The notes beneath the pieces were generated by a model. It was not told the origin of the DNA. It worked only from the letters and a program-made list of their open reading frames with translations, and did no database searches. Positions 6,035 to 11,687 of a stretch of 64,000 bases of DNA are shown here, in pieces (position 1 is the first letter of the stretch; each line of letters opens with the position of its first letter). Origin of the DNA: Gammaproteobacteria bacterium (lineage in GTDB: Bacteria; Pseudomonadota; Gammaproteobacteria; JAPPPA01); assembly GCA_030425645.1 (NCBI GenBank), contig JAUHZK010000011.1, positions 1-64,000 of the forward strand, in the 5' to 3' direction. Position numbers and translations under genes: made by a program.

Positions 6035-6964
6035 TTAATAGCGGGCTGGGTTTCGATCAACCGCGGCTAGGTTCCAACTGCGGCCATCGCTTGCTTGGCT
6101 TTCCAGCTGTTGTTCGGCCGGATCGGCTAGCTGGTGAAAAAAGTCGAGGCCGGTAGCGGCTTCAATATCATCAATACTGCTCAGAAAACGGCTGAGCGGC
6201 TCATTGCCTTTGACTTGTTGCGGCATCACAAAACTGATGGCCTCTGCCGGTGCGGTATCGGTAGCGGGTTTGACGATGATTTTGTAGAAGGCATCTGGGA
6301 TTTCAACGCCGCTGCGCAGGCTGCTGATTTGGTCGTCAAAAATGGGCCCGGTGATGACCCATAGTGTTTGCTGACGCGGCAAAAAATGGTCGACTACGAC
6401 TTCTTCCAAACGCTGCCAGAGTTTTTGGTTTAGATTCTTACGTTGTGGGCTGATATTGCTCATTTTGAAGCTGGCGAGCTGGGCGCTGCGGCCATATTCG
6501 CTGGCAATGGCATAGTTAGGCGCTAGATGCCCACGATCGTAGCCGCTGCGGGTGTAATCGTTGCTGGCAATGCGCATCAGGCTGCGGTTGTCGATCGTAA
6601 AGTGTTTAGGGCGTTGGCCGCTGTGGCGTTGGGGTTTCTGGCTAAGGCGATAGGTCACCCAAAGCGCGTTACGGCGCCATTCTGAGTAGCCGAGCATAAA
6701 GCCGGGGTTACGCCAATGTCGCAGCCAATGGCTGGGGCCGGACTCGGTGGTTTTAGGGACGCCCATATAGGCCATTTTGGCTTGTTCTTGGCGGTCATGG
6801 TCTAACCAGAGAAAGCTTAGGGGAATGGCGATCAATAAAATCAGCAGACGTTTGCCACGCGCATGGCGTGAGAAAAACAAACTCAGTAAAGTGACCAGCA
6901 GATTTTTGGATTGCCGGCGATGAGATTGTCGGCGAGGTGATGATTGGGGAAATTGAAAGGCCAT
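6035..6964 (-). CDS. DNA/RNA non-specific endonuclease (NUC1 family), membrane-anchored
   Basis: This 309-residue protein carries the signature DRGHLAP at 143-149, with His146 as the expected general base. NISPQRKNLNQKLW follows, where Asn179 aligns with the Mg-binding Asn of Serratia nuclease. A basic N-terminus is followed by one hydrophobic segment (about 40-54), suggesting an inner-membrane anchor or uncleaved signal with the nuclease in the periplasm. Such enzymes cut DNA and RNA without sequence preference and may serve nutrient scavenging. The start codon shares the tetranucleotide CATG with the divergent VOC gene. A later start would remove the membrane segment, so I keep this one. 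Confidence 0.85.
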   Translation of the reverse strand: MAFQFPQSSPRRQSHRRQSKNLLVTLLSLFFSRHARGKRLLILLIAIPLSFLWLDHDRQEQAKMAYMGVPKTTESGPSHWLRHWRNPGFMLGYSEWRRNALWVTYRLSQKPQRHSGQRPKHFTIDNRSLMRIASNDYTRSGYDRGHLAPNYAIASEYGRSAQLASFKMSNISPQRKNLNQKLWQRLEEVVVDHFLPRQQTLWVITGPIFDDQISSLRSGVEIPDAFYKIIVKPATDTAPAEAISFVMPQQVKGNEPLSRFLSSIDDIEAATGLDFFHQLADPAEQQLESQASDGRSWNLAAVDRNPARY

Positions 6965-7358
6965 GACAGACAGTAATAATTCAGCGAGTGGGGCAGGAAG
7001 TGCCGGCGCATCTTATCCGGTTTCGCATGTGGAATGGGAGGTTGCCGATGGTGGTTTGTCAGCGGCCTTTTTAGAGCGTCTGTTTGCTTGGTCTTTTTCT
7101 CGCTTTAGCGAACATTATTGGTTGTACGAGGCCGCCCAGGGCCCGGCCATAGGCTTGCTAGAGAAAGCCGAACCGAAGCGCTTGGATGAAAGTTGCCCGG
7201 TGTTTATTCAAGTAGATGATATGGCCGCTAGTTTGGCGCTGGCAGAGTCGTTGGCGGCAGAAATTATTGAGCAGCCGGTAGCGATTGAAGGTTATGGACG
7301 TTGGGCCAAAATAAAAGAGCCCGGCGGTAATCTCGTCGGGCTCTTTGAAAAGGTTTAA
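6963..7358 (+). CDS. VOC-superfamily (glyoxalase/bleomycin-resistance-like) protein
   Basis: The 131-residue protein has two beta-alpha-beta modules in the style of the vicinal-oxygen-chelate fold. The first opens with SHVEWEV, the second ends with the diagnostic EPGGNLVGLFE, corresponding to the common DPxGNxxxLFE block. Metal-ligand candidates are His23 and the Glu in GLFE. About 20 residues of Ser/Gly/Ala-rich sequence precede the domain. Substrate is unknown. The gene overlaps the divergent nuclease start by two bases. The DNA of its last 13 codons also forms a strong hairpin that reads as a terminator for the convergent DoxX gene. Confidence 0.75.
   Translation: MTDSNNSASGAGSAGASYPVSHVEWEVADGGLSAAFLERLFAWSFSRFSEHYWLYEAAQGPAIGLLEKAEPKRLDESCPVFIQVDDMAASLALAESLAAEIIEQPVAIEGYGRWAKIKEPGGNLVGLFEKV
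7310..7346 (-). terminator. Terminator for doxX/htrA embedded in the VOC coding sequence
   Basis: On the minus strand, AAAGAGCCCGACG and a matching arm form a 13-bp stem (7334-7346 with 7314-7326, one G-U) around a seven-base loop. TTTTATTTT follows directly. This is a canonical intrinsic terminator for the minus-strand DoxX gene, which ends at 7384. It overlaps the conserved EPGGNLVGLFE codons of the VOC gene. Confidence 0.75.
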
Positions 7359-7383
7359 GGGCTTAATTTAGGCGCTGAAGGTT

Positions 7384-7998
7384 TTAGCGACGAAAGACTT
7401 GGTAAATCCAATAGTCGAGGCTAAAGAAGCGCCCAGCGCCCGTGAAGAACAGCGATAACAACATCACAAAATAGGTGGCGGCGAATTCAATGCCGTTATT
7501 CAAAATCACGAAGTTGCCACTGCTCTTAAGCCAGCCGTAGTTGCCGTGTGCCTGTAACAGGCTTTTGGCAGCGGCGAGCTTGTCGGCAGAGTCAGCAATG
7601 CGGTCGGTCAGGAAGATGGCCGGTGCTTTGGGGTCAGCGATTGCTGGCCAGCCGTATTGCCAATGTACAGTTACGGCGGCGACCACCATGGTCACCATCA
7701 TCGGGATGGCCATCCAGCGTAGGGCGAAACCAAATAACAGGGCAACAGCGCCGAGCAGTTCGGCGTAGCCAGCCAAATAGGCCATTAAGGTTGGGAACGG
7801 CAAACCTAGACCCCAATCGGGGTTGCCAAACCACTGCACCACCGAGTCGTAGGGGGCGAGGGTTTCAAAATCAATTTTGTTGCTGCCGGCCATCCAAAAA
7901 ATAGGCACTAAGTAGAGGCGTATGGCGAGTGGCGCGAGGAAGTCGAGTTTCCGAGTCCAGTTCAGTGCGTCATGTGCACGGTTGGCAAGCATCAGCAT
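7384..7998 (-). CDS. DoxX-family membrane protein
   Basis: I start this 204-residue protein at the ATG at 7996-7998, which has AGGGA eight bases upstream; a longer frame would run into htrA. The sequence has four hydrophobic segments. It contains LVPIFWMAGSNKIDFE near the first helix, YAELLGAVALLFGFALR and MMVTMVVAAVTVHW, the usual pattern of DoxX proteins of the inner membrane. An insertion of about 45 residues (GWPAIADPKAPAIFLTDRI onward) lies between helices 3 and 4. The family's role is poorly defined, with links to redox homeostasis. It starts 20 bp after the htrA stop, so the two probably form an operon. Confidence 0.85.
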   Translation of the reverse strand: MLMLANRAHDALNWTRKLDFLAPLAIRLYLVPIFWMAGSNKIDFETLAPYDSVVQWFGNPDWGLGLPFPTLMAYLAGYAELLGAVALLFGFALRWMAIPMMVTMVVAAVTVHWQYGWPAIADPKAPAIFLTDRIADSADKLAAAKSLLQAHGNYGWLKSSGNFVILNNGIEFAATYFVMLLSLFFTGAGRFFSLDYWIYQVFRR

Positions 7999-8017
7999 GA
8001 TGATTTCCCTGTGTTGG

Positions 8018-9445
8018 TTATCGAATAGTGACGTCGTAAACCTGTTGGCCACTTTGTACCAAGAGTTTGAGGCGGTTGCCGCTGCCACGTAAAGCTTCTC
8101 GGAAAGACTGCATACCGTTAATAAAAGTTCCATTTACCTGCAGTACCACGTCGCCGGGGCGCAGGTTGGCGTGCCAAGCGGAGGTGCCGCTGCGTACCGA
8201 GTGCACGAGTACGCCGGCGGCGGGGCCGATTTGTTCAGCTAGTGGTAAATCGCGGAATTCAGCGCCGGAAAGTTTGGGGTGAATAAAGTCACCGGCGCTG
8301 CGGCTGGGTACTGGGCGTGGGAAACGGGTCTGAAAACTCAGTGCTTGCGTGCCGCGTTGCACTTCGATGGTAAACAGCTGGCCTGCAAGCAAAAGCCCGG
8401 TGGCGTTACGTAAGGTTTGCTGGCTGTCGATATCGGTGCCATTAATACGCTGAATGATGTCGCCCTCGCGCATGCCGGTGCGGGCGGCTAATGAACTGCC
8501 TTCGACCTTAGTAACGACAATGCCTTCGGCGGTATTGCTTAGGCCAAAGCGCAACCGCAAAGCATCGTTTAGCGGTTCGGTGACAACGCCGAATTTGCCA
8601 CGCTGTACGCTGCCGTACATTAGTAGCTGCTCCATAATGCCGTTGAGCTTTGAGGTTGGTATGGCAAAGCCAATACCGGCGTTGCTGCCAGCTTCAGAAT
8701 AAATGGCGGTATTCAGGCCTACCAGTTCACCATTGGTGTTAACGAGCGCACCGCCGGAGTTGCCCGGGTTAATCGGCGCATCGGTCTGGATATAGTCTTC
8801 GATACCGTTGCCGTTACCGTTAATACCGTAGCGCCCAAGGGCGCTAACAATGCCCAAGGTGACCGAGTGGCGCAGCCCAAAGGGGTTGCCGACCGCGACG
8901 ACAAAGTCGCCGACTTCTAGGTCAGTGGAGTCACCAAATGGCAGCTCGCTCAAATTGGTAGGGTCTATTTTCAGCAGTGCGACGTCGGTGTTGGGGTCGC
9001 TGCCGAGTAAGCGCGCATTAACTTGGCGTTCGTCGTTTAGCACCACGTTAATTTGGTGAGCGTCTTCGATCACGTGGAAGTTGGTGATGATGTAGCCAAG
9101 CTCAGCGTTAACAATAACGCCGGAACCCAAGTTACGAAATTCGCGGTCGTCGCTGCCATCAGGGTTGTCGAGAAAGTATCGCAGGCCGTCGGTTTCACCG
9201 GCCTCGCGTTTTTCATAGCCAACCGTAGTGATGTTGACCACCGCTGGGATGACTTGTTTGAGCATGGGTGACAGGGTCAATAAACCCTGACTTTCGGCCG
9301 CAGGCTTGGGAACTGAGCCACCGCCTGCGCTAGGCTGCAAAGGTGGTGGCTGCGAGAAGAACTGCTCGTAGGCCACTAAAACCACGATGGTAGTAAGGAT
9401 GACCCGCCACAAATACAGGGAAATTTTTCGCCAGCGTAGTTCCAC
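8018..9445 (-). CDS. HtrA/Deg-type periplasmic serine protease with two PDZ domains
   Basis: This 475-residue protein has a single N-terminal hydrophobic segment (about 11-26), a trypsin-like domain (about 60-260) and two PDZ domains (about 285-375 and 400-475). The triad is His124 (TNFHVIEDA), Asp154 (NTDVALLKI) and Ser230 (PGNSGGAL). Two PDZ domains indicate a DegP/DegQ-type quality-control protease-chaperone, whereas DegS has one. The LA loop (RYFLDNPDG) is short, more like DegQ. The N-terminal segment lacks a clear signal peptidase site, so the protein may be membrane-tethered. It lies in an operon with DoxX; a 51-bp gap separates it from the divergent 5'-nucleotidase. Confidence 0.9.
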   Translation of the reverse strand: MELRWRKISLYLWRVILTTIVVLVAYEQFFSQPPPLQPSAGGGSVPKPAAESQGLLTLSPMLKQVIPAVVNITTVGYEKREAGETDGLRYFLDNPDGSDDREFRNLGSGVIVNAELGYIITNFHVIEDAHQINVVLNDERQVNARLLGSDPNTDVALLKIDPTNLSELPFGDSTDLEVGDFVVAVGNPFGLRHSVTLGIVSALGRYGINGNGNGIEDYIQTDAPINPGNSGGALVNTNGELVGLNTAIYSEAGSNAGIGFAIPTSKLNGIMEQLLMYGSVQRGKFGVVTEPLNDALRLRFGLSNTAEGIVVTKVEGSSLAARTGMREGDIIQRINGTDIDSQQTLRNATGLLLAGQLFTIEVQRGTQALSFQTRFPRPVPSRSAGDFIHPKLSGAEFRDLPLAEQIGPAAGVLVHSVRSGTSAWHANLRPGDVVLQVNGTFINGMQSFREALRGSGNRLKLLVQSGQQVYDVTIR

Positions 9446-9496: not shown

Positions 9497-10465
9497 ATGA
9501 AGAAACAAAATCAGATAAAAGATTTAAGCGTACTGATCTCATCGCGTGCCTTATTTGATTTAGAGGACAGCCATCAGGTCTATTTAGACAAGGGTGTGGA
9601 GGCTTATTGCGCCTACCAGCGCGAGCATGAAAACGAACCCTTGGCACCGGGCGTGGCCTTTAACTTGGTGCGCAAGTTGCTGCGCATTAATGAGCTGGTC
9701 GGCGACGATCCCGAGGTGCCGAAGATTGAGGTTTGCCTGTTGTCTCGTAACAGCGCCGATACTGGCTTACGGATTTTTAATTCGATTGCTCATCATGGGC
9801 TACCGATTGAGCGTGCCGCCTTTACCAACGGTGAATCGCCATTCCGTTACGTGAACCCGTTTCATGGTGATTTGTTTTTGTCGGCCGAGGATGACGATGT
9901 GCGCTTGGCTTTGGCTGGTAACCATGCTGCCGCTAGGATTTCGGGTGCCTCGGTTGGCGCTAACGACGACGACATTGTGCGTATTGCTTTTGATGGTGAC
10001 GCGGTGCTGTTCTCGGATCAGTCGGAGCGCATCTTTAAAGAGCAGGGTTTGGATGCCTTTATGGAGAACGAGGCCAAATCTGCACAGCAGCCGTTGGACC
10101 CCGGCCCGTTTAAGGGCTTTTTAGAAGGCCTGCATCAAATTCAGCGGCGCTTTAACGTAGACGAGTCACCGATACGGACGGCACTGATTACCGCGCGTGG
10201 TGCCCCCGCGCATGAACGCGTGATTCGCACCCTGCGTTCTTGGGACGTGCGGCTTGATGAAATGCTGTTTTTGGGCGGCAAGCCGAAACGTGAGTTTTTA
10301 GAAGCCTTCGGCGCCGATTTCTTTTTTGACGACCAGCAAAGCCATATTGATGGCGCTAGCGGCAGCATTGCCTCTGGCCATGTGCCGCACGGTGTTGCCA
10401 ATGAAAAAGCTACGGCGCAGAAAGTAGTTTCTCTATCATCCAGCGGCGGTCGTAACCCCAAGTAA
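9497..10465 (+). CDS. 5'-nucleotidase, cytosolic NT5C1-like family
   Basis: The 322-residue protein matches the family of cytosolic 5'-nucleotidase I (PF06189-type). It has VLISSRALFDLEDSH at the N-terminus, YQREHENEPLAPGVAFNLVRKLL, LSRNSADTGLRIFNSI, a DGDAVLFSDQSE motif (HAD-like acidic motif) and FFDDQQSH near the C-terminus. It would hydrolyse nucleoside monophosphates in the cytoplasm; AMP or IMP preference is not visible. The last 56 bp overlap, in antisense, the 3' end of the convergent DsbA-type gene, so both C-termini are encoded by the same DNA. Confidence 0.88.
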   Translation: MKKQNQIKDLSVLISSRALFDLEDSHQVYLDKGVEAYCAYQREHENEPLAPGVAFNLVRKLLRINELVGDDPEVPKIEVCLLSRNSADTGLRIFNSIAHHGLPIERAAFTNGESPFRYVNPFHGDLFLSAEDDDVRLALAGNHAAARISGASVGANDDDIVRIAFDGDAVLFSDQSERIFKEQGLDAFMENEAKSAQQPLDPGPFKGFLEGLHQIQRRFNVDESPIRTALITARGAPAHERVIRTLRSWDVRLDEMLFLGGKPKREFLEAFGADFFFDDQQSHIDGASGSIASGHVPHGVANEKATAQKVVSLSSSGGRNPK

Positions 10466-11687
10466 CAAAGTCGCCCAGTTTCCAACTCGGTACGCCCCAA
10501 AGGCCTTGGTTAAAGAGGTCTTGGCGGTTGCGTTCGGCTAGGTCCAAATCCATACCTTTGGCGAGTTTGGCGAGTACCGCAGAATCATCTAAGCCTGCTT
10601 GGCGGCTGGCATGAAGCAAGCCTTCGTCGGTGGCAATGTCGGTGCTCTCAGCAAAGGCAGCGCGTGAGGCGGCGGCTAGGAACTGCAGCTGTTGCTGGGT
10701 GCCTTTGCAGAGGTTGAAGACGGTGAGTGCGCGTTCGGCACCAGCGCCAATAGGGTCGGCAATACGGCCAAAACGTAGGCCGTCGCGTTCAGCGCAGCGT
10801 TTTACGTCGCGCACGATATACAAACGCTTAGCGCGCGGCACCGGCAGTCCCCGCATGGCCATTGGTAGCACCGGTTTGACGACAACGTCAGCGGGCCATT
10901 GCTGATGATTTTTTAGCACGTAGTCAGCGGCCAAGTAGGAGTAGGGGCTACGAAAGCTGAAATAAAACTCCAGCTGTTTGTCGCCGCTCATTTTGAGCTG
11001 GGCGGCATCCGCATTGAAGTCTAATAACGGTGTTTCTGCTTCTAACGCTCCCCATTTCAAAAGCTTTTGCTGCAAAAACTCAAAGCGGTCCAAGGCCCAG
11101 AACCACTCGCCGTCGAATTGCCACATGGCGGGCAAATAGTGGCCCATTTTCTTGCGTCTTAGCGCGTTGCGGCCGAGTTCGGCGTCGGCGCGGGTGCGAT
11201 CGAGTAAAGCGATGTCAGCTGGCCAACCGGCGTTGCCAAAAATGGCGGCTCGAGTTTCAGCCTCAAGTGTCAGTAGGCGATAGAGGTCTTGGCCATGACC
11301 GCAGAATGCCTGCATGGCGCGTTGTTTGCTGTCTGCGTTAGGAAGGCTGGCGTTGGCCGGTAGTTGTAGTCCCCAAGCGTTGGCAATGCGCAACGCATCA
11401 ATCAAGGCAAACTGCTGTTGCTTGTCGGCCTCCGGATAGGTGTTGGCCTCTGGCGTCGGCACAACCAATACTTGAATTGGACAATGTATGCGGTCTGCAA
11501 AACGCCCTAGGGCTTGTAGGGCTAGGTGCGAATGTGGGTCGCCGGGTTCGAAATAGAGTTCTAGTGTGGGTGGTTTGCCACGCACGTTGTTCAACCCAAA
11601 ACGGCGGGCTTTGGCACGTGCGCTAGGGTCGGGGCGCGACACCACTTGCTCAATAATCCAGCCCCGTAATTTGCTTGCCATACTCAT
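10410..11687 (-). CDS. Tandem DsbA/HCCA-isomerase-like (kappa-GST fold) protein
   Basis: I start at the second in-frame ATG (11685-11687), which has AAGGGG eight bases upstream; an ATG at 11708 would overlap the upstream stop. The 425-residue protein has two related halves. The second (about 215-425) contains LEFYFSFRSPYSYLA and ends GVPSWKLGDFVTWGYDRRW, the pattern of 2-hydroxychromene-2-carboxylate isomerase and kappa-class GST. The first (about 25-200) has LELYFEPGDPHSHLA and MWQFDGEWFWALDRFEFL. No CxxC pair is present, so it is not a thiol oxidase. It lies 11 bp after an acyl-CoA dehydrogenase gene, hinting at a catabolic role. Confidence 0.75.
   Translation of the reverse strand: MSMASKLRGWIIEQVVSRPDPSARAKARRFGLNNVRGKPPTLELYFEPGDPHSHLALQALGRFADRIHCPIQVLVVPTPEANTYPEADKQQQFALIDALRIANAWGLQLPANASLPNADSKQRAMQAFCGHGQDLYRLLTLEAETRAAIFGNAGWPADIALLDRTRADAELGRNALRRKKMGHYLPAMWQFDGEWFWALDRFEFLQQKLLKWGALEAETPLLDFNADAAQLKMSGDKQLEFYFSFRSPYSYLAADYVLKNHQQWPADVVVKPVLPMAMRGLPVPRAKRLYIVRDVKRCAERDGLRFGRIADPIGAGAERALTVFNLCKGTQQQLQFLAAASRAAFAESTDIATDEGLLHASRQAGLDDSAVLAKLAKGMDLDLAERNRQDLFNQGLWGVPSWKLGDFVTWGYDRRWMIEKLLSAP

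Follow-up and report, generated by a model that had tools for sequence, protein, structure and literature searches.

When a gene stops only 25 nt short of a convergent neighbor, a simple question arises: where would its transcript end? In the stretch of 64,000 nucleotides analyzed here (the window; contig JAUHZK010000011.1 of a gammaproteobacterium), the question is posed by a doxX-type gene of the HvfX family, the stop codon of which has its last base at 7384 (minus strand), and a gene for a VOC-fold protein with the stop codon at 7356-7358 (+ strand). A sequence-only reading of this DNA had placed the terminator of the former gene inside the latter, with the same bases serving both protein function and termination. 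Here we argue that the last codons (116-128) of the VOC gene very probably contain a one-sided intrinsic (rho-independent) terminator of the convergent degS-hvfX unit (Table 1).

Table 1. Features of the VOC/hvfX locus, in window coordinates
Feature	Positions	Strand	Remarks
DNA/RNA non-specific endonuclease gene	6035..6964	-	beyond VOC; would be the target of read-through transcripts
VOC-fold protein gene (glyoxalase/Rv0577-like)	6963..7358	+	codons 116-128 hold U-tract and stem
U-tract UUUUAUUUU	7308..7316	-	reverse complement of codons AAA ATA AAA; first three bases pair in stem base
Terminator hairpin (candidate)	7314..7346	-	10 outer Watson-Crick pairs, A.C mismatch, 2 inner pairs, 7-nt loop; -17.7 kcal/mol
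doxX-type gene, HvfX family	7384..8004	-	start 8004 taken from the ORF of the relative; DoxX match and NF050144
DegS/DegP-like trypsin-PDZ protease gene	8018..9445	-	upstream of hvfX, same strand

The hvfX product scores 226.5 bits against NF050144, the curated cut-off of which is 80, and hence belongs to the HvfX family. The name of such genes is usually tied to the maturation of copper-binding peptides. Here the HvfX-family gene adjoins a DegS-like protease gene, and no other such cluster gene was seen among the four proteins scanned (6035-9445). Judging from the spacing and from the same gene order in a relative, degS and hvfX probably form one operon. For the VOC protein, no family was found in Pfam at E<=10; a two-sequence profile matched 3oxh (Rv0577) with an E-value of 2.4e-9, and a Foldseek search with a structure model of moderate confidence (pLDDT 66) returned 16 chains at E<=0.001, mostly with glyoxalase-type names, at TM-scores of only 0.35-0.54 and with large rmsd. 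These sequence and fold matches to VOC structures point to membership in the VOC fold. In the predicted structure, the hairpin codons correspond to the ends of the last two beta-strands (112-118 and 124-130) and the turn between them. At its other end, the VOC gene overlaps the nuclease gene head to head: the two start codons, ATG at 6963 (+) and ATG at 6964 (-), share the CATG at 6962-6965, and the relative has this CATG too (L002, 1259/1260). Provided that both starts are correct, each gene would contain promoters or ribosome sites of the other.

Does the VOC gene indeed carry a terminator for the opposite strand? Read on the minus strand from 7346 to 7314, the hairpin is AAAGAGCCCG-A-CG-AGATTAC-CG-C-CGGGCTCTTT, running into UUUUAUUUU (7316-7308), where 8 of the 9 positions are U, with 5 U among the 8 bases past the stem. 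All 33 hairpin bases lie within VOC codons, as had been claimed for this hairpin and its T-run; the codons behind the U-tract are AAA ATA AAA (K116-I117-K118). The extent that had been proposed, 7310-7384, does contain the hairpin, but the hairpin proper takes up 7314-7346 and not the whole span. Its stem starts 37 nt after the hvfX stop codon. With a GC-rich stable hairpin, a U-tract after the stem and a position downstream of hvfX, the element has the predicted make-up of an intrinsic terminator, and, with both hairpin and U-tract in the codons of the neighbor, that of a terminator embedded in a convergent coding sequence. From the position of the U-tract, the RNA 3' end is predicted at about 7305-7310, in agreement with the earlier expectation of an end near 7305.

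The folding of this region is unusual: the segment 7300-7362 has a z-score of -4.0, with none of 200 shuffles as good, and the segment 7310-7384 has a z-score of -3.2 (1 of 200), the longer segment 7300-7400 being less exceptional (z-score of -1.75; 12 of 200). A generic hairpin scan, confined to loops of at most 8 bases, found 6 sites in 5 kb versus 8.1 in shuffles and is evidence neither way; it passed over the present hairpin, probably because the mismatch leaves a loop of 13 bases. No Rfam family matched at E<=1 over 6900-8100. The exact arms AAAGAGCCCG...CGGGCTCTTT occur at a single place in the genome and thus do not belong to a repeat element with this sequence. In form, it resembles the intergenic terminators of the same genome, for example, AAAGCCCC...GGGGTTTTTTATT. 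An alternative terminator between 7358 and 7384, which would have spoken against the embedded one, was searched for, and no intrinsic candidate was found there; elsewhere in 6900-8100, the minus strand has a single candidate at -7 or better (7741-7774, -15.7 kcal/mol), and it lies inside hvfX.

A reality check is important here: could the hairpin be a coincidence? The motif E-P...G-L is readily self-complementary (GAG CCC versus GGG CTC), so that the repeat might follow from the protein sequence and codon choice. The amino acids do force the pairs between second codon positions, and among synonymous recodings of the region drawn with the codon usage of the genome, 50 of 4000 still reached -10 kcal/mol or better. 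However, in the two sets of recodings drawn, none combined a U-tract with a hairpin of -17.7 kcal/mol or better (0 of 3000 and 0 of 4000), and a single recoding per set reached <=-15 kcal/mol (1/3000 and 1/4000). By enumeration, codon choice alone would yield the 10 outer Watson-Crick pairs with an exact probability of 3.7e-5; this value rises to 2.1e-4 when G-U pairs count as well and falls to 3.1e-6 when ATA is required in addition to the Watson-Crick pairs. Recoding of the relative's own codons gave similar figures (0/4000 as strong as its -19.8; 2/4000 at <=-15), and the relative has the stronger hairpin though just about half to two thirds of the shared residues keep their codon in the genes of the locus. 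It is hardly credible, then, that coincidence produced the hairpin.

The interior of genes provides another control. In a sample of 443,836 bases from the same genome, including the window, 2126 antisense windows from gene interiors were scored with strict shape rules; none attained -17.7, and 22 were at -12 or better (these windows, of 130 nt, were slightly shorter than those at gene ends). In a looser scan of 392 such windows of 190 nt, the thresholds of -17.5, -15 and -10 were reached by 1, 5 and 39, respectively. Thus, the hairpin is not accounted for by chance or by protein constraint. As for the motif itself, a search of 369 genomes with a DNA pattern for [DE]PxGNxxGLFE hit only 2 of them, each a member of this genus. 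When the pattern was relaxed, 15 of 114 genomes contained 17 matches between them; the 15 matches outside the genus lacked, by eye, the GAGCCC/GGGCTC arms, a weak control inasmuch as matches were counted as a DNA pattern, whatever their gene.

Has the hairpin been retained in evolution? One usable relative of the VOC-hvfX pair was found, in the same genus (record JAPPPA010000261.1; it came up twice, as loci L002 and L006, each on a contig of 11911 bases). Searches for the VOC protein in the genomes available for the genus and the order yielded the same 2 genomes, and a scan of GTDB contigs yielded 1 locus; in the class, 5 of 56 genomes matched, namely the genome itself, one genus member and three with 27-28% identity (L003-L005), which were left out. 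A search of the class for HvfX matched 104 of 274 genomes, and the best 30 loci (28 besides the two genus members) were examined; among these, relatives of the VOC, nuclease and protease proteins beside hvfX (BLASTP at E<=1e-3, about 1.5 kb on each side) were found in the two genus members only. The relative has the same four genes in the same order, with the protease gene incomplete owing either to the contig stretch or to its start there. Identity amounts to 54% for VOC, to 179 of 204 aligned residues for hvfX and to 235 of 303 for the nuclease.

In the relative, the same codons form a hairpin of -19.8 kcal/mol, with the 10 outer pairs and UUUUAUUUU unchanged. One inner pair, at 7325/7335, has changed on both sides, from C-G to T-A in + strand letters (U-A in RNA), the replacement V125I being half of this double change. 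The sequence-only reading had called EPGGNLVGLFE the most conserved block of the protein. It does align with the C-terminal strand motif of VOC structures, and the longest invariant run of the two-sequence alignment, WAKIKEPGGN, covers part of it, but residues 124 and 125 differ. When neutral drift was simulated with the window sequence as the starting point and with synonymous change rates taken from the genes of the locus, a hairpin as strong as the relative's arose in 20 of 4000 runs at q=0.37 and in 14 of 4000 at q=0.51. As for conservation at synonymous sites in this one relative, the stem pairs and the U-tract are kept, but codon identity (11 of 13 degenerate residues in the hairpin versus 32 of 51 in the rest of VOC) is not significant alone (Fisher p=0.12). 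Moreover, 16-codon stretches that are nearly as alike (11/14, 10/13) are present in the nuclease and hvfX genes, and the exact 24-nt identity at the hairpin is not unique, as other parts of the locus have identical runs of 24 and 23 nt. The two sequences thus speak of retention, with one compensatory pair, and do not amount to a phylogenetic test. Together, the recoding null, the gene-interior control and this retention support the proposed dual use of the bases, for protein codons and, in all likelihood, for minus-strand termination, on which selection may have acted.

The dual use is reflected in the register of the stem. Third codon positions lie opposite first positions across the stem, and second positions opposite second ones. 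In the ten outer pairs, all third positions hold the pairing base, several of them via a rare codon, the shares of the hairpin-region codons in the genome sample being 9.1% for GGG, 8.0% for CTC, 8.4% for ATA, 16.9% for CCC and 16.7% for GTC. The sole mismatch lies between the second positions of the codons for Gly121 and Val125 and recurs unchanged in the relative; it is fixed by the protein because a Watson-Crick repair would need an amino-acid change. This register is the expected look of two constraints on the same bases.

On which strand would the hairpin act? It might serve the VOC mRNA, on the + strand, as a structure at the 3' end (for stability, as a pause site or as a two-way terminator), with the minus-strand fit as a by-product of symmetry. 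The + strand, indeed, folds better, -29.4 (z-score of -5.5) versus -19.3 for the minus strand, because the A.C mismatch is G.U there, and the relative's + strand reaches -34.7 (z-score of -6.7); besides, no + strand terminator candidate of -7 or better was found in 7202-7976, which includes the 160 nt past VOC, the next one being weak (-8.9 at 7977-8013). However, the + strand tail after the hairpin is UUUGAAAA, so that a U-tract, which a bidirectional terminator has on both strands, is present on one strand only, and the best + strand score with a U-tract is -4.4. A VOC mRNA released there would lack its stop codon. Moreover, the rare ATA, which the relative shares, is not part of the stem but fills out the minus-strand U-tract. 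Accordingly, we consider a + strand role quite unlikely. A trailing ribosome should hold a stem open in translated codons. Given the missing + strand U-tract, the loss of the stop codon upon release and the trailing ribosome, the element reads as one-sided, ending degS-hvfX transcripts and letting those of VOC pass.

The termination of degS-hvfX transcription can be envisaged as follows. RNA polymerase would leave hvfX and cross the 25-nt gap with no ribosome following; the RNA of 7346-7314 would fold, and the polymerase would let go in or just past UUUUAUUUU, at about 7305-7310. In VOC transcription, the same DNA would form a stable hairpin, followed by UUUGAAAA, within translated codons, so that the VOC mRNA would reach its stop codon.

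Is such an arrangement common in this genome? With genes called by our own codon-usage script rather than a standard gene finder, 52 convergent pairs were found; after 4 pairs with gaps >200 nt were left out, 48 remained, 36 tight and 12 wide (>60 nt). A fully intergenic strict terminator was present in 9 of the 12 wide pairs, in 7 of these on both strands, and one further wide pair had a strict match that straddles the end of the neighbor, with 57% inside. Wider gaps usually hold strong two-way terminators, such as L040:16657-16690 (contig C1:36657-36690). Any strict match was found in 7 of the 36 tight pairs, and among the 72 tight ends, 3 strict matches at 2 places lie in the codons of the neighbor, with about 0.7 expected from the control; the two places are the VOC/hvfX hairpin and one with a poorer tail. 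Embedded terminators are, thus, not clearly enriched genome-wide, and the VOC/hvfX case stands out for its strength, not as an instance of an established trend. A looser scan put the best hairpin mostly inside the neighboring coding sequence at 10 of 96 convergent gene ends, with many long loose foldings; our claims rest on the strict scan. Elsewhere in the window, the predicted genes 9497-10465 (+) and 10410-11681 (-) overlap convergently by 56 nt, and the scan for intrinsic terminators was blank at both ends of this pair.

The tight pairs also bear on another possibility, namely that Rho ends most hvfX transcripts, or that these continue as RNA antisense to VOC and to the nuclease gene, with the hairpin weak or leaky owing to its fixed A.C mismatch. 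In 29 of the 36 tight pairs there is no strict intrinsic terminator, and other modes of ending are probably used there. Furthermore, an A.C mispair makes a terminator of S. aureus leaky (PMC8745188), and the convergent transcripts tested in Rickettsia prowazekii mostly ran through or ended diffusely (PMC3027695). Here, however, the mismatch is near the loop, and ten unbroken Watson-Crick pairs separate it from the unpaired U-tract, which makes this mode of ending unlikely as compared to the embedded intrinsic terminator. With regard to the same mismatch, it is conceivable, if rather doubtful, that terminator and VOC protein evolved together as a single object. The self-complementary E-P...G-L motif would have been recruited as a one-sided terminator, with the third-versus-first pairing set by the code, and the Gly/Val second-position mismatch, unrepairable without a protein change, would couple the protein sequence to termination efficiency and hence to antisense transcription into VOC.

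How does this element compare to known systems? Bidirectional intergenic terminators are found between convergent genes, for example, tonB/yciA of E. coli, and are reportedly the subject of work by Ju et al. from 2019, cited in PMC7566282. Our scan of the tonB/yciA gap gives candidates on both strands (-10.4 and -23.5). The VOC/hvfX element is similar in that one inverted repeat lies where two convergent genes meet, but it has a U-tract on one strand and is located in codons rather than in the gap. Closer precedents come from E. coli: according to PMC2174442 (Biol Direct 2007 2:22), convergently overlapping genes must have rho-independent terminators in the coding sequence, and putative ones were reported for 23 of 116 such genes. 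There, too, the terminator of one gene would lie within the coding sequence of its convergent partner; yet those cases form a prediction set of overlapping genes, whereas here the genes are separated by a 25-nt gap, the hairpin is wholly in the codons of the neighbor and it is kept in a relative with one double change. Compensatory evolution of intrinsic terminators has been described in Bacillus cereus (PMC5381666). Paired substitutions preserve the stem in both systems, but half of the double change here is the amino-acid change V125I, and the case is single. The literature on terminators and HvfX, searched in general terms, contained no description of the VOC/hvfX locus, which is weak evidence of absence. 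Hence, the idea of a terminator in the codons of a convergent gene is already known from the putative E. coli cases, and this locus appears to add an example that is well supported by its sequence.

Taken together, these data make the locus a clean, small case: the synonymous codon choice of one gene is best explained by where transcription of another is predicted to end, and the codon register can be followed from one pair to the next. They also call for caution, in that rare codons and synonymous conservation near gene ends may not reflect translation effects alone. The VOC/hvfX junction would, thus, be a compact test piece for two information layers that share the same bases.
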